Assembly: GCA_020832185.1 (NCBI GenBank)
Contig: JAFIFE010000013.1
Location: 1 to 45,220, forward strand
DNA: 45,220 nt
Reading direction: 5' to 3'
Origin: Alkalibacterium sp.
GTDB taxonomy: Bacteria > Bacillota > Bacilli > Lactobacillales > Carnobacteriaceae_A
The position numbers and the translations under genes were made by a program. Shown piece after piece: positions 1,898 through 14,833 of this stretch (its first letter is position 1; each line of letters starts with the position of its first letter). A model generated the notes under the pieces. It saw only the letters and a list, made by a program, of their open reading frames with translations. It was not told where the DNA came from and did no database searches.

Positions 1898-2641
1898 AGA
1901 GAAATTAGCAGCTTCTTTAACGGCTGAATCCACTGCACTTATTCCCTATTTGCCTTATCTTCTACAAGATTTGTGGGAGCTGGGTTCTTCACCCAGAGAT
2001 ATATGTGCGCTGCTTGAGGCTGACACACCGATATCTGAAGACTATCATGTGCTTGATTTGGGGTGTGGAAAAGGCGCAGTCAGCATTGTTATGGCGGAAC
2101 GTTTTAAGTGTCATGTTAAAGGCATCGATTTACTACCAGAGTTCATTGAAGAAGCTGAACAAAGAGCCATTGACTATGGAGTAGCTGACATTTGTCACTT
2201 TAAAGTAGGAGACATAACTGAATCAGTCAATGAAGAAAAGAATTACGATAGTGTCATATATGGGGCAGTGGGGGATGTATTAGGTGAACCGGTTGATATG
2301 ATCAACCAGTTGAAACAGACAGTCAGAGCAGGAGGCTATATAATTATCGATGACGGCTATGCTTTGGACGACAATGCATACTATTACACCAAAAAAGAGT
2401 GGCTGTCCTTTTTAAGAATGCAGAAATGACAGTGATTGATGAAAAGGAGATAGAACAAGACGAAGTTGTGTCTCTGTGTCACCATCAGATCGAGAAAATC
2501 ACTCATAGAGCAAATGAGCTTAAAATGAGATACCCAGAGGCGTCTGATTTGTTCGAGAGCTACATTACAAGTCAGAAAGCAGAATGCAAGGATCTTACCA
2601 ACGAGATTATAGGGGTAACTTTTCTACTCCAGTCAAAATAA
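1884..2641 (+). pseudogene. SAM-dependent class I methyltransferase, interrupted by a -1 frameshift
   Basis: The first frame (GTG at 1884, ribosome binding site GAGGGGAC) has the SAM-binding motif I VLDLGCGKG at residues 56-64, but stops at 2429 after 181 residues. Without interruption in homology sense, a second frame carries on through about 2399-2641 (KNAEMTVIDEKEIEQDE onward). One extra T in the TTTTT run at 2409-2413 would join them as WLSFFKNAEMTV into a protein of about 252 aa, a normal length for such enzymes. The cause may be a real mutation, a homopolymer sequencing error or, less likely, -1 ribosomal slippage at CTTTTTA. The target is unknown. Confidence 0.75.
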
Positions 2642-2645
2642 ATAA

Positions 2646-2703
2646 GACCGGTGAGCGCCTGGGACTTCTTTGAACGTGAAGAAGTCCCAGACGCTTACTG
2701 GTC
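2646..2703. terminator. Long hairpin between convergent genes, probably bidirectional terminator
   Basis: Arms at 2646-2670 and 2679-2703 pair over about 25 bp with only three imperfect positions and an 8-nt loop. A TTTT follows on the plus side; on the minus strand the hairpin is followed by a U-rich TTATTTATTTTG stretch. It sits between the methyltransferase end and the heliorhodopsin end. Confidence 0.8.
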
Positions 2704-2717
2704 TTTTGGATAGGGAA

Positions 2718-3500
2718 TTAGGGCTGCATAACACCTGCAAAGGCAAGCCAGGCAAGAATCGATTTAGCAAATAGGCTCAGAATGATATACCCTCGTTCTC
2801 CATAAAGGTAATTTTCCCATCTGCCTATTTTTTTGTATTGAAGGATCATATTGATTGGGAATAAATTAAAGAAGACAAAATAACTGCCTACGATTGCGTA
2901 CACAAACCAGGGAACTTCTGCAGGGTTGGAATTACCAAACGCATAGAGAAGGATGACGATCCATGGTGCCAGACCTGCTATCGTACCAAATACAAAAGGT
3001 TTCCAGTTCGTTCGCTTCGCATAATAATTCATTTCCTCCATATCCAATCCAAACAGGTTCATCGAGGCATTTACTACAACGATTAGTATAAGGGCTCCAA
3101 TATCGTACACTCCGAATAAAAGGGCAATCAGCATGATCATTAAAGAAGAACTGAGTGCATATTCATACCAGCGGAATCGGTTCATTCCTTTACTCAGATC
3201 ATCATTGTACTTAGGATTGCCCCAAGGGCTAACGATTATGAAATGTGCAAGTGCGGATAGGAAAAGAAATAAGGAGACAGTAACACCAAATGGAAGTTCA
3301 AAAAGCATATCCGTTTCAGTGACTAAACGCATTTGAGTTTCATCGAATGTCAGAAAATTTGACATCACAGGTATTCTAAAGTCGGCAATACGGTCTATAA
3401 ATAAGGCAAACCCAAGCATCAGCAAGCCTTGAACTAGATGCAGAACCCCCATCACTAAATTGAATTTTTTCAATGAAGAGTAAGTTATTTCTTTTGACAT
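2718..3500 (-). CDS. Heliorhodopsin
   Basis: The 260-aa protein has seven hydrophobic segments (roughly 12-34, 68-91, 111-129, 132-150, 168-187, 197-223, 237-257) and a long first inter-helix loop, as in heliorhodopsins. The last helix holds LFAKSILAWLAFAG, with Lys246 as the expected retinal Schiff-base lysine. Ser242 (K-4) and Trp251 (K+5) are also in place. Helix 3 carries RWYEYALSSS, with Glu113 as counterion. His21 and His86 match the two conserved histidines of characterised members. Heliorhodopsins bind retinal with inverted topology, do not pump ions and are thought to be light sensors. The ATG at 3500 has AGAAGG eight bases upstream; a GTG at 3509 is less likely. No retinal-making gene is visible nearby. 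Confidence 0.95.
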   Translation of the reverse strand: MSKEITYSSLKKFNLVMGVLHLVQGLLMLGFALFIDRIADFRIPVMSNFLTFDETQMRLVTETDMLFELPFGVTVSLFLFLSALAHFIIVSPWGNPKYNDDLSKGMNRFRWYEYALSSSLMIMLIALLFGVYDIGALILIVVVNASMNLFGLDMEEMNYYAKRTNWKPFVFGTIAGLAPWIVILLYAFGNSNPAEVPWFVYAIVGSYFVFFNLFPINMILQYKKIGRWENYLYGERGYIILSLFAKSILAWLAFAGVMQP

Positions 3501-3575
3501 GACGAGCACCTTCTTTCATATTAGTATCTTCAGTTTGTAAGAGTGTCTTTTGTCATCGCGTACCCCTTTCTCAAA

Positions 3576-3594
3576 TGAACATACTTCCTGTTCA
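3576..3594. promoter_or_regulatory. Inverted repeat upstream of heliorhodopsin, candidate operator
   Basis: TGAACA and TGTTCA form perfect 6-bp arms around a 7-bp spacer, 76-94 bp upstream of the heliorhodopsin start. The arm sequence recalls DinR/LexA half-sites (GAAC/GTTC), but the spacing is too wide for that regulator. The regulator is unknown. Confidence 0.4.
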
Positions 3595-3620
3595 ACGTAT
3601 CTTGTTAATCGTATTTTACC

Positions 3621-3634
3621 ATAACGCACGTTAT
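3621..3634. promoter_or_regulatory. Palindrome ATAACG-CA-CGTTAT, candidate operator
   Basis: Perfect 6-bp arms flank a 2-bp centre, giving a compact 14-bp site typical of dimeric helix-turn-helix regulators. It lies between the divergent heliorhodopsin and ywbE genes, about 120 bp from the former and 145 bp from the latter. No obvious regulator gene is adjacent. Confidence 0.4.
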
Positions 3635-3778
3635 AAAAACCTCTTTTACTCTCTCGAAGGTGTGGAAGTTTCTGTGAACAAATCATCATTCCTTTCTTGA
3701 TCATGCAAAAGGATGGACAAAAAGGTATACTAGTGTCAGGTAGTGAATAAAAAGGATAGTTCAAAGGAGAGTATTTAC

Positions 3779-3973
3779 ATGGATGGCACAAAACGTTCTA
3801 ACATTAACCCGGGGGATAAAGTAAAAGTGGTCCAGAAACAGGACCAGCGGTCTGGTAAATTGACGGAAGGTGTAGTTTTAAAATTATTAACTAATTCACC
3901 TACACATCCTCATGGAATCAAGGTTATGCTTGAAGACAAGACTGTTGGACGAGTAAAGGAAATAATTAAATAG
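3779..3973 (+). CDS. ywbE: YwbE family protein (DUF2196)
   Basis: The 64-aa product has the YwbE pattern RSNINPGDKVKVV, KQDQRSGKLTEGVV and LTNSPTHPHGIKVMLED, nearly its whole length. The family consists of small basic KOW-like/SH3-like proteins of unknown role. The ATG at 3779 has AAAGGAGAG seven bases upstream, giving the standard family length. An upstream in-frame GTG at 3743 lacks a ribosome binding site and was not used. The gene is divergent from heliorhodopsin and ends in its own terminator, so it is probably monocistronic. Confidence 0.92.
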   Translation: MDGTKRSNINPGDKVKVVQKQDQRSGKLTEGVVLKLLTNSPTHPHGIKVMLEDKTVGRVKEIIK

Positions 3974-11366: not shown

Positions 11367-12371
11367 TTAATAGCGAGTTAAGTCAACGGCATTTTCTGGT
11401 AGAGGATCAGGGAGTGGTTTTCCAAATAAATACCCTTGAAATAAGTGATAGCCGTTTGTTTTTAGCCACTCGAAATCTTCAATTTCTTCAATGCCTTCGG
11501 CTAAGGTTATGGCACCATATTCTCTCGCTTTCTCTAAAAACGATAAAGCGACTGCCTGCTTTTTCTCTGAGGCGTGCACGCCTTGAACATAATGCATGTC
11601 CAGTTTAACGTAAGGTGGTTTTAAATCAGATAACAGATCCAATGTATTATATCCAGAGCCAACGTCATCCAGGGCATAACTAAAGCCATTATTTTGGTAA
11701 TATGTTAATATCGATTTTAAATGTGCGGTATCCCGTATTTTTTCCGTTTCCACTACCTCAAATACAAAGCGGTCGCTTTCAATATTCATCTGTTTGGCAA
11801 CTGCAGTCGTTGTTTTAAGACAATAGGCCGGATCATAAATTGCGGTAGGGATAAAATTGATAAAGGCCTTCTGATCCTCACTTAATCGTGTCACTTGTCT
11901 GACACCTTGTATACGGCATAAACGGTCTAATGCAAATGTGCGGCCTCTAATTTTGGCAGCAGGAAACATAACGTCAGGGTAAATCACGTCTCCATTTTGA
12001 TCTTTAAAGCGAGCAAGCATTTCATAGCCATATATTTTACCGGTCGAGGTGATAATAGGCTGAAAATGCATGGCAATAAATTTCTCTCTAAGTATATTAT
12101 CCACCCAAGAGGATTCTATGTATGTTCTGATATCTAAAATAGGTAACCATTCGTCATTATGGATTTTAAATGAGACTTCTTCAGTCAAAGCCATAGCTTC
12201 CAGAAAATCGGTTAAATCTGCTGCAGCCTGCTCGGTTGTGAGTATGTAGTCATCCTTGATGGCGTACGGGTAATCTCTCTGATCAAAATGACTGAGAACC
12301 ATTGAAGTTAGCTTGCTGGGAATATCTAATATAATTCGCTGTTTGCTTATAGTACAGGAAGGACATGCCAT
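11367..12371 (-). CDS. EAL-domain cyclic-di-GMP phosphodiesterase
   Basis: The EAL domain spans about residues 95-325. The signature reads YGYEMLARF (EML for EAL, Glu117), NF.P (Asn172), FEVVE (Glu205/208), YALDDVGSGY (Asp235-Asp236), VKLDM (Lys256), LAEGIEE (Glu292) and FQGYLFGKP (Gln312). The residues needed for metal binding and catalysis are all present, so hydrolysis of c-di-GMP is expected. The N-terminal 90 residues carry MACPSC, a CxxC pair, but no recognised sensor domain, and there is no membrane segment. No GGDEF cyclase is present in the window. The ATG follows GGAGG (ACTGGAGGTTTTACG upstream). Confidence 0.9.
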   Translation of the reverse strand: MACPSCTISKQRIILDIPSKLTSMVLSHFDQRDYPYAIKDDYILTTEQAAADLTDFLEAMALTEEVSFKIHNDEWLPILDIRTYIESSWVDNILREKFIAMHFQPIITSTGKIYGYEMLARFKDQNGDVIYPDVMFPAAKIRGRTFALDRLCRIQGVRQVTRLSEDQKAFINFIPTAIYDPAYCLKTTTAVAKQMNIESDRFVFEVVETEKIRDTAHLKSILTYYQNNGFSYALDDVGSGYNTLDLLSDLKPPYVKLDMHYVQGVHASEKKQAVALSFLEKAREYGAITLAEGIEEIEDFEWLKTNGYHLFQGYLFGKPLPDPLPENAVDLTRY

Positions 12372-12819: not shown

Positions 12820-14079
12820 ATGACTATAGGCTATGCGTGTTTAACGCGAGGTGTGATGGATCTAAACTACAAAACCTGTCGCAGACAAAACGCGACCAGG
12901 GAAAATTTGACCGAACTGATCGAGCATAATCTTGCAGTACTTGAAGCCATGATTGATTATAATCATCAAATGAACATCCGGCTGTTTAGAATGAGCTCAG
13001 ATATCATTCCGTTTGGGTCAGATTTTAACGTGAACGATTTGAACTGGTCTGCCCTTTTCAAAGAAAGATTTGATCAGATCGGGAAAAAAATTCAGCAATA
13101 TGATATGAGAGTATCCATGCATCCTGGTCAATATACGGTCCTTAATTCACCTAATCCAGATGTTGTCTCAAGAGCAATTGATGATTTAACCTACCACACA
13201 CAATTTATTGATAATTTTAATGTGGGGTCTCAGCACAAAATCATTCTTCATATTGGGGGAGTCTATGGGGACAAAGAAGCGGCAGTCATTAGATTCATTG
13301 ATGTCTACAAAATGCTAGATGATGCGGTCAAAGCAAGGCTTATCATAGAAAACGATGATCGGCTGTATACAATTGAAGACGTGCTGTATATAAGTGAGAA
13401 CACAGGAGCGCCTGTTGTATACGACAATCTACACCATTATATAAATGGAAAGGAACTGGATGGGTCAGATGCCTACTGGATAAGTAAAGCAAAAGGAACC
13501 TGGAAAGACAGTGATGGCAATCCCAAAGTTCATTATTCTCAGCAGCAGTTGGGTGCCAGGGAAGGGGCTCATTCCCAGACCGTTCGACTACAGGAATTTT
13601 TGGGGTATTATGAATCCATTGCTCCACTAGGTATAGACATTATGCTGGAAGTGAAAGATAAAAACTTATCCGCAGTAAAGTGTATCCTTGCAACCTCAAA
13701 AGAAGCAACCATTAAAGATCTGGAAAAAGAGTGGAGTAGATACAAATATGCTGTACTGGAAAGATCCCCCTCACATTATCAGAAAATAAGAGAGCTGCTG
13801 AAAGATAAAGCATCTTATCCAGTAGTCCCCTTTTACAGAATGATTGAAGAGGCAATGGATACGCCTTTATCCTCTAAAGTAGTGATCAATAGTTTAGACC
13901 ATGTATGGGGGTATGTAAAAGGTCAAGACGTTCAAAAAGATAAAAAAGCATTCGAAAAGTACAAAAAGGAGGTAGACGTGTCTGTTGAGTCACTACCCAA
14001 AGCAAAGCGTTTTCTGAAAAGAATGGCATTAAAACAGCAGCAGGTATATTTATTGGAATCATATTACTTTGATTTATAA
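12820..14079 (+). CDS. uvsE: UV damage endonuclease UvsE with DUF1722-like C-terminal extension
   Basis: Residues 1-300 form the UvdE TIM barrel: GYACLTR, FRMSSDIIPFGS, MHPGQY (His101), LHIGGVYGDK (His144), IENDD (Glu177), YDNLHH and later HSQT and MLEVKDK metal ligands. UvdE nicks DNA 5' of UV photoproducts. Residues from about 305 add RYKYAVLERSPSHY, then NSLDHVWGYVKG and QQQVYLLESYYF, a pattern resembling DUF1722 (the YbgA family, encoded beside photolyase in Escherichia coli). UvsE of Bacillus is about 320 aa, so this is a likely fusion. Ribosome binding site GGGGGA precedes the ATG. The TspO-like gene follows after 19 bp. Confidence 0.93.
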   Translation: MTIGYACLTRGVMDLNYKTCRRQNATRENLTELIEHNLAVLEAMIDYNHQMNIRLFRMSSDIIPFGSDFNVNDLNWSALFKERFDQIGKKIQQYDMRVSMHPGQYTVLNSPNPDVVSRAIDDLTYHTQFIDNFNVGSQHKIILHIGGVYGDKEAAVIRFIDVYKMLDDAVKARLIIENDDRLYTIEDVLYISENTGAPVVYDNLHHYINGKELDGSDAYWISKAKGTWKDSDGNPKVHYSQQQLGAREGAHSQTVRLQEFLGYYESIAPLGIDIMLEVKDKNLSAVKCILATSKEATIKDLEKEWSRYKYAVLERSPSHYQKIRELLKDKASYPVVPFYRMIEEAMDTPLSSKVVINSLDHVWGYVKGQDVQKDKKAFEKYKKEVDVSVESLPKAKRFLKRMALKQQQVYLLESYYFDL

Positions 14080-14098: not shown

Positions 14099-14833
14099 AT
14101 GTCAACTAAACAAAGATTTGGAATCATTTATAGTGTTGCGTTTGTTGTGATGATTGCTATGAATTATCTGGTCGGATCTGATGTAGGGACCATCGCGGAT
14201 GAAAATCAGGCAATTATACAACCGGCTGGATATGTCTTTTCAATATGGGGACTCATTTATATTTTACTGGCCATATGGATTATTCGTCTGTTTTTTTTGA
14301 ACCACGAAAGAGATCAAGTGTATGAAACACTGCACTATTGGCCTATCGCTAACTTCATCTTGAATGCTATGTGGATTGTTGCGTTCACACAGAGATGGCT
14401 ATTGGCGTCCGTTATCATTATAATTGGTCTTCTCATTACCCTGATTGTCATATACAAGAAAATTACTAAAACATCATCAGACTGGTTTGATCGTGTCCCA
14501 TTCTCTGTCTATTTCGGATGGGGGACAGTCGCGACTATAGTAAATATTGTTGATCTAGTGAAGGACGAAGGGATAGAAGAAGTAGCAGGATTAAACGAAT
14601 ACCAGTGGACACTTATATTACTTGTCATAGCGACAGTTATTGCGCTTTTTGTCTCATTAGCTCATATGGATTGGATATATCCGCTAGTGTTTGTATGGTC
14701 GTTCGCAGGAATAATAGTTGAAAATGAAAATCAGTTGTTTTTACTGACCATTGTTGCTGGAATGGGAATTGTCTTTCATATTCTTGCCGCTTCAATTGTT
14801 GGATTTAGTAAAATTAAAACCATGACTCGTTAA
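14099..14833 (+). CDS. TspO/MBR-like tryptophan-rich membrane protein
   Basis: The 244-aa protein has about seven hydrophobic segments. PAGYVFSIWGLIY (about residues 42-54) and PIANFILNAMWIVAF match the conserved helix motifs of the TspO family in its longer Firmicute form (classical TspO is about 160 aa, five helices). TspO binds porphyrins and, in Rhodobacter, modulates light- and oxygen-controlled pigment genes; the role of the long form is unknown. The ATG has AAGGAG upstream, 19 bp after uvsE, so the two are probably co-transcribed, and a strong terminator follows. Confidence 0.8.
   Translation: MSTKQRFGIIYSVAFVVMIAMNYLVGSDVGTIADENQAIIQPAGYVFSIWGLIYILLAIWIIRLFFLNHERDQVYETLHYWPIANFILNAMWIVAFTQRWLLASVIIIIGLLITLIVIYKKITKTSSDWFDRVPFSVYFGWGTVATIVNIVDLVKDEGIEEVAGLNEYQWTLILLVIATVIALFVSLAHMDWIYPLVFVWSFAGIIVENENQLFLLTIVAGMGIVFHILAASIVGFSKIKTMTR

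Follow-up and report, generated by a model that had tools for sequence, protein, structure and literature searches.

A solitary heliorhodopsin gene of Alkalibacterium and the co-occurrence of heliorhodopsin with photolyase in the Lactobacillales

A heliorhodopsin gene in the window

The window analysed here is the whole stretch of 45,220 nucleotides (positions 1 to 45,220) of contig JAFIFE010000013.1 from Alkalibacterium sp., a haloalkaliphilic lactic bacterium (assembly GCA_020832185.1), which is contig C12 in our own numbering of contigs (C), genomes (G), genera (g) and loci (L). It carries a gene for heliorhodopsin (HeR), a protein whose cellular role is still debated and which context studies have approached mainly through its neighbour genes, so that solitary HeRs stay unassigned. 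We describe this solitary gene and report that HeR and photolyase occur together in genomes across the order Lactobacillales. The gene is as follows:

2718..3500, minus strand: heliorhodopsin gene, 260 aa, identified by PF18761, NF038020, residues and fold model

The open reading frame (ORF) begins with ATG; if a GTG three codons before it were the start, the protein would be 263 aa long. As the original prediction had held, the gene is complete: the ORF is intact, and the Pfam profile search proposed as a check matched PF18761 at 342.5 bits (cut-off 26.7, E 1.6e-102) over all 242 profile positions. The NCBIfam HeR model NF038020 gave 318.9 bits (cut-off 100, E 2.1e-95), and the six distinct PDB sequences matched by the protein are each named heliorhodopsin (best E 3.6e-58). 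No second domain was found in the Pfam scan, which gave PF18761 only, and an identity as type-1 microbial rhodopsin was rejected, PF01036 being unmatched. The PF01036 profile also had no match elsewhere in the genome (2.64 Mb, 28 contigs), which holds a single HeR.

Residue roles were assigned by HMMER alignment to 48C12 together with PMC9726877. By this alignment, K246 would be the Schiff-base lysine and E113 the counterion, and the surrounding network comprises N14, H21, Q24, S82, H86, Y98, R110, S117, E235, S242 and W251; the helix 7 motif SxxxK is present as S242-LFA-K246. The six residues named beforehand (His21, His86, Glu113, Ser242, Lys246 and Trp251) were all found at the positions given for them. 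The 15 positions aligned with the Schiff-base and hydrogen-bond set of 48C12 are identical in 33/33 aligned HeRs, an alignment made of 31 of 80 loci, the window and G008, from which the stop-bearing L021 and L024 were excluded. The invariance of W251 thus excludes L024 and G024, where this codon is a stop, and that of W180 excludes L021. E149 of 48C12 pairs with E155 or E156 of the window protein, depending on the gap.

The seven helices predicted earlier were also recovered in the AlphaFold2 model (pLDDT 90.0, pTM 0.85), as seven long helices with a two-strand sheet within the first outer loop. The ten best Foldseek matches of this model were HeR chains (TM 0.82-0.88 on the query), and other rhodopsins appeared only from E 2.3e-3. 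The predicted inner loops contain 14 lysines and arginines and the outer loops 3, a charge bias that fits a cytoplasmic N-terminus, that is, an inverted topology. We regard it as practically certain that this is a genuine, intact heliorhodopsin.

HeRs are described as limited to monoderms, Firmicutes included (PMC8612252), and have already been published from the Lactobacillales (Trichococcus, PMC9769723), so that the window gene adds a member to a known family. Our literature search, of partial coverage and with supplementary tables outside it, found no paper pairing heliorhodopsin with Alkalibacterium or Carnobacteriaceae and none pairing Alkalibacterium with rhodopsin; an Alkalibacterium HeR may well figure in an earlier listing. 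Within the same limits, heliorhodopsin and the UV-damage endonuclease UvdE were found together only in PMC8612252. The part worth following is the order-wide co-occurrence of HeR and photolyase.

Distribution, phylogeny and selection

HeR was present in 10/12 Alkalibacterium genomes examined, the present one included, and absent from G001 and G009. The nearest named relative is the HeR of A. olivapovliticus, with 93% identity. Among seven intact Alkalibacterium copies (21 pairs), the ratio of nonsynonymous to synonymous differences (pN/pS) was 0.06-0.16 at pS 0.72-0.92; these counts were used as the dN/dS calculation in Biopython gave no usable dS in most pairs. Judged from these sequences, the Alkalibacterium HeR is under strong purifying selection. 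Degraded copies were also seen: L021 (A. putridalgicola) and L024 (A. thalassium) carry a single stop each, and L017 is a HeR fragment of a relative genus (G024) in which the codons of R236 and W251 are stops, so that W251 has given way to a stop in two lineages.

In a tree of 99 rows, from which L081 (stop), eight stop-bearing, fragmentary or duplicate loci and same-genome duplicates were omitted, the Lactobacillales HeRs occupy three places. The first is an 18-row clade (support 100/99) of Alkalibacterium, G015, g18 (a genus with one genome labelled Carnobacterium), G228, G372 and G147 with three Clostridia-type metagenome-assembled genomes (MAGs), the second a clade of Trichococcus, g30 and Enterococcus aquimarinus, and the third E. 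rivorum, whose position is not resolved. Because the HeRs of the order fall in three places, the tree suggests several transfers of the gene. A further copy, 66.5% identical to the window protein, is carried by Lactococcus petauri on a mobilizable plasmid of 10.5 kb (NZ_CP141705.1; L176:5592-6368), its nearest annotated neighbour being an IS6 transposase, and on this evidence HeR can be mobile in the order.

Co-occurrence of heliorhodopsin with photolyase and UvdE

The HeR of Trichococcus flocculiformis (TfHeR) is reported to bind class II photolyase and to raise repair and rescue; it is encoded in an operon with the class II photolyase and a DUF2238 gene and is the sole opsin of its genome (PMC9769723). 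This raised the question whether solitary HeRs travel with photolyase too. Among 395 genomes of the order, 33 had HeR over the cut-off (the two stop-bearing copies and the fragment of G024 counted in), 103 photolyase and 72 UvdE; matches below the cut-off, in G384 (photolyase), G297 (HeR) and G079 (SQS_PSY), were left uncounted. Photolyase was found in 32/33 genomes with HeR and in 71/362 without it (Fisher 9e-20), and UvdE in 29/33 and 43/362, respectively. Both repair genes occurred together in 35 genomes, 29 of which have HeR.

The association was also present outside Alkalibacterium, in a set of 99 genomes: photolyase was found in 7/7 genomes with HeR vs 16/80 without it (p 4e-5) and UvdE in 6/7 vs 16/80 (p 9e-4), while SQS_PSY showed no such link (1/7 vs 21/80, p 0.88). 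The association of HeR with photolyase is seen in carriers that fall in three places of the HeR tree.

UvdE, as a light-related gene, was meant to serve as negative control for the tie between HeR and photolyase. Across the order it failed in this use, as it correlates with HeR too, and it separates from photolyase only within genera. In the five genera in which HeR is variable (g1, g4, g18, g30 and g58; 33 genomes), the exact probabilities multiply to 1.9e-5 for photolyase and to 1.0 for UvdE; g4 contributes a single degraded HeR in a 71%-complete genome, and g18, g30 and g58 possibly lack genomes with none of the three genes, whose addition would strengthen the contrast. HeR is variable in genus g25 too, with at least 16 photolyase genomes, one of them (G378) with HeR, but this genus was excluded from the test because the tables omit its genomes lacking every match. 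In the five genera, the presence of photolyase goes with that of HeR, which is not so for UvdE.

Linkage to repair genes and types of photolyase

On the window, the nearest repair gene is that of UvdE, which is followed by a gene for a TspO/MBR-like protein:

11367-12371, minus strand: EAL-domain protein, 334 aa, between the HeR gene and uvdE
12820..14079, plus strand: UV-damage endonuclease UvdE/UvsE with DUF1722, 419 aa, ~9 kb from the HeR gene
14099..14833, plus strand: TspO/MBR-like membrane protein (PF03073, 26.4 bits, cut-off 24)

UvdE lies on the HeR contig, 7.9-24.4 kb away, in 9/10 HeR-bearing Alkalibacterium, a linkage which is largely shared synteny and should be taken as one event. 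The TspO/MBR-like gene is on the same strand, 19 bp downstream of uvdE. This pair was also found in G001 and G009, which lack HeR, and there too the EAL-domain protein adjoins uvdE. The uvdE loci of these two genomes (L167-L169), which stop at contig ends or were trimmed, had no match for HeR, DUF2196, RNA ligase or OYE, and no empty HeR site is deduced from this. A second TspO-like protein (L158:11768-12577 in G006), related to the first by BLAST and with no Pfam match, is ~2.4 kb from a CRY-DASH gene. Profiles of defence systems matched neither HeR nor UvdE.

Short distances were seen in other genera as well. In both carriers of g30 (L122 and L170), HeR is preceded on its strand by UvdE at a distance of ~0.6 kb, with a mechanically called 92-aa ORF on the opposite strand between them in L122. 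The Trichococcus-type genome G079 (L121) has the order class II photolyase, DUF2238, HeR. In G228 (L159), HeR is followed on its own strand by two glycosyltransferase-like genes, one ORF and then, ~5 kb off, a class I-like photolyase, and in G015 photolyase is ~19 kb and UvdE ~36 kb from HeR. The combined chance probability of the linkage was 4e-6, or 1.3e-4 without Trichococcus, calculated with one genome per genus picked after the distances were known (the closer of two for g58, the farther, G069, for g18; g5, g25, g48 and g71 not included).

The type of photolyase varies between Alkalibacterium species. Those of the present genome (on contig C26, not in a HeR operon) and of G003 are nearest to PRK10674, which we take to be class I photolyase, with 405 and 404 bits, below the cut-off of 506. 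That of G005 (A. subtropicum) is nearest to phr2, class II (549.5 vs a cut-off of 550.05), and G006 has a CRY-DASH 13 kb from HeR (452.9 bits, over the cut-off of 317.05).

Two further arrangements were recorded. In g18 (L119, L120 and L028), HeR has a thioredoxin-like gene on one side and cggR on the other, downstream of clpP, and three Alkalibacterium (L157, L163 and L161) have a class I-like photolyase immediately upstream of apparently the same clpP-thioredoxin-cggR run, genes being named by Pfam for L028 and by eye for the others. In five genomes of the same family that lack HeR (genus g9: G019, G021, G023, G025 and G026), photolyase is ~5 kb from SQS_PSY, a proximity that suggests light-protection clusters.

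Surroundings of the gene

The immediate surroundings of the HeR gene contain the following features:

ORFs 1884-2429 and 2399-2641, convergent to the HeR gene: methyltransferase, split by a frameshift near 2410 (ORF comparison)
2640..2717, no strand assigned: long near-perfect hairpin separating HeR from the methyltransferase ORFs; folding energy, HeR strand, -41.6 kcal/mol (z -9.8)
3501..3742, no strand assigned: HeR-DUF2196 intergenic region, scanned for promoter-like sites

The convergent methyltransferase and the divergent ywbE (here a DUF2196 gene) of the original prediction are both in place, except that the methyltransferase is frameshifted into two ORFs. Its relative in L026 is one intact frame of 255 aa, and the split in the window is either a frameshift or an assembly error. 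Both genes flanking HeR are on the opposite strand in 9/9 Alkalibacterium loci (the window, L018-L024 and L026). The only neighbour on the HeR strand is a mechanically called 91-aa ORF (3516-3791), which overlaps the DUF2196 gene and belongs to no shared cluster. The claim that HeR has no obvious partner therefore holds for adjacent genes; it does not extend to the wider genome, with UvdE ~9 kb off, nor to the order, in which carriers nearly always have photolyase. The HeR of G008 is at another site, as judged by eye, and groups with those of G147 and G228 in the tree.

The hairpin, of 78 nt, is not on the list of a simple terminator scan; it is probably a shared transcription terminator of HeR and the convergent gene. 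Between 2300 and 4100, five promoter-like sites were found vs 4.7 expected by chance, with none on the HeR strand in the intergenic region. The HeR transcript probably covers this one gene and stops at the hairpin.

Source of retinal

No family of retinal-forming enzymes was over its cut-off in the present genome. RPE65/CCD matched 0/99 genomes of relatives, and 2/14 controls. Blh (PF15461) matched 8/99 genomes, all Alkalibacterium and none over the cut-off, in a search with no positive control (0/14 controls). Of these eight matches the one in the present genome was examined, and it proved to be YidC/60KD_IMP (172.8 bits), a chance match of membrane proteins. The cyclase PF18916 was found in 0/31 genomes. 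Lycopene_cycl (PF05834) matched 12/31, six over the cut-off and the present genome below it; these matches span only the first 34-43 profile positions and 10/14 control genomes match too, so that they were read as a shared nucleotide-binding start rather than as a cyclase. SQS_PSY was present in 11/12 Alkalibacterium, the present one included, where it lies with a CrtI-family gene on C27 (L114). This desaturase passes the crtI_fam subfamily cut-off, and no equivalog cut-off was reached by SQS_PSY or the desaturase among the matches listed (for the desaturase, the best 25 of 77). The pathway of this group is presumably one to C30 carotenoids.

The cell thus appears, by profile searches, to be without a recognised enzyme forming beta-ring carotenoids or retinal. 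Since no such retinal-forming family is over the cut-off, retinal is probably scavenged from outside, although an enzyme of unrecognised kind making retinal is possible. The same has been proposed for Saccharibacteria, and the paper concerned mentions, by citation, that HeR binds retinal from outside rapidly (PMC9296517). Alkalibacterium sp. 20 (G004) has both HeR and a type-1 rhodopsin with no SQS_PSY or RPE65 match and no Blh over the cut-off.

Type-1 rhodopsins (PF01036) were seen in G004 (L140:1480-2184) and G035 (L141:1483-2175), both of which also carry HeR and have no Blh, RPE65 or SQS_PSY match over the cut-off. A fasciclin (FAS1) gene is next to the rhodopsin of G004 (L140:1480-2880), and two are next to HeR, divergently in G147 (L166:7213-10094) and upstream, by BLAST, in L057:1445-3329. 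Two cases beside HeR among 80 named and 19 region loci scanned were too few to build on, and an association of fasciclin with rhodopsin was set aside. A fasciclin protein as carrier of retinal or carotenoid is conceivable, because an algal fasciclin protein binds carotenoids (PMC10147662).

Proposed role and alternative explanations

We propose that the window HeR spans the membrane with seven helices, its N-terminus in the cytoplasm, and would hold all-trans retinal, supplied by scavenging, on Lys246, with Glu113 as the counterion. Light would isomerise the retinal and move the Schiff-base proton to the Glu113/His86/His21 network, as in 48C12, which has the same residues, and a slow photocycle like that of 48C12 would then shift the basic cytoplasmic loops. 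HeR would most likely couple visible light to the mending of UV damage in DNA, through an action in trans on photolyase and/or on the UV-damage response. The family, residues, fold model, selection, co-occurrence and linkage were observed here; retinal binding, photocycle, partner and mechanism are what we infer. The reading of HeR as a photosensor that scavenges its retinal and is coupled in trans to photorepair draws, by analogy, on TfHeR and its adjacent photolyase in Trichococcus, on the co-occurrence and on the linkage, and we give it a probability of roughly 45%.

Several observations weigh against this coupling. HeR is missing from six genomes with both repair genes, G147 carries it with neither of them, and photolyase occurs without HeR in 71 genomes, 15 of them of genus g25. 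Across the order, the correlation of HeR with UvdE is as strong as that with photolyase, the shared ancestry of genomes makes the Fisher values overstate the evidence, and the co-occurrence may stem from light-exposed habitats. None of the Alkalibacterium loci examined has a photolyase beside HeR; the nearest repair gene is 582 kb away in G069 and 61 kb in G035, and UvdE is ~52 kb from HeR in G372. Because the type of photolyase differs between Alkalibacterium species, a single conserved binding interface is argued against. Of the three residues tested in TfHeR, only K227 is kept at the aligned position (K224), R162 pairing with A161, next to K162 and R163, and E97 with P96; the partner of HeR may be a regulator of repair rather than photolyase itself. 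Lastly, HeR has an in-frame stop in two of the ten Alkalibacterium that carry it, TGA for W180 in A. putridalgicola and TAG for W251 in A. thalassium.

The main rival is that HeR is a general light sensor, for oxidative stress, metabolism or another membrane partner, and that repair genes co-occur with it through a shared sunlit habitat. This is quite possible: the equal correlation of UvdE across the 395 genomes agrees with it, other HeRs are reported to regulate glutamine synthetase (PMC9529153) and an ABC transporter (PMC11109279), and Bulzu et al. propose photo-oxidative stress sensing (PMC8612252). However, within five genera photolyase separates carriers from non-carriers and UvdE does not, SQS_PSY is unlinked to HeR outside Alkalibacterium, and short-range linkage of HeR to repair genes recurs in several genera. 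That HeR is instead a dispensable acquisition being lost, with little function in Alkalibacterium, would agree with its absence from two of 12 genomes, the two stops, the degraded remnant in the relative genus, the mobilizable Lactococcus plasmid with its IS6 transposase and the lack of any retinal-forming gene found. We consider this improbable, given the intact frame in the window, the low pN/pS at near-saturated synonymous sites, the retention of all functional residues and the conserved site in nine of nine examined Alkalibacterium loci. Regulation of the immediate neighbours (the methyltransferase, a 2'-5' RNA ligase-like protein and the DUF2196 protein) is very improbable: DUF2196 (or OYE) and RNA-ligase-like genes do border HeR in the majority of the nine loci, as do genes of RNA ligase and OYE in G015, but all flanking genes of the nine loci are on the opposite strand, the methyltransferase cluster adjoins HeR only in the window, where it is frameshifted, and L026, and methyltransferase, RNA ligase and DUF2196 had no match near HeR in the scanned regions of g18, g30, g36 and g58. 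Hardly any weight falls on proton transport driven by light, which has been reported of a HeR from a giant virus, since TfHeR is described as not pumping (PMC9769723) and the window protein has the full residue set of the 48C12 type.

A wider form of the photorepair proposal is that Lactobacillales HeR is a general retinal-scavenging accessory, working in trans with class I, class II or perhaps CRY-DASH photolyase and gained and lost with photolyase across genera, so that the operon-bound TfHeR would be its visible tip. We hold this to be doubtful. With the co-occurrence seen in carriers from three parts of the tree, among them carriers of solitary genes, the Trichococcus result becomes a testable general hypothesis, and it can be tested in culturable bacteria without a recognised retinal pathway.

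Comparison with known heliorhodopsins

Among the closest known systems is TfHeR, which belongs to the same family and the same order, is 61% identical to the window protein and shares the 15 key residues. Its genome has no other opsin, as reported, and the present genome likewise has one HeR and no PF01036 match. In contrast, TfHeR is operon-bound, whereas the window HeR is solitary, with a class I-like photolyase on another contig, and R162 of TfHeR, reported as needed for binding, is not kept at the aligned position. TaHeR (PDB 6IS6, 7U55) and 48C12 (PDB 6SU3, 6UH3) share the fold (TM 0.82-0.88) and the hydrogen-bond network with the window protein at 41-45% identity; the first outer loop is longer in the window protein.

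Among the closest sequences outside the Lactobacillales are HeRs of Clostridia-labelled and Syntrophomonadaceae MAGs, which are 66-82% identical and have different gene neighbourhoods where examined. The MORN-fused HeRs described in haloalkaline Syntrophomonadaceae (PMC8612252) differ from the window protein, which has no domain besides HeR. Photolyase is one of the ten groups of frequent HeR neighbour genes that have been listed (PMC11109279), and most of the Znf-HeRs of Thermoplasmatales are flanked by genes of photoprotection and repair, including photolyase and UvdE (PMC8612252). These Znf-HeRs are archaeal, carry an N-terminal zinc ribbon and have their neighbours nearer than the 9 kb that separate HeR and UvdE in the window.
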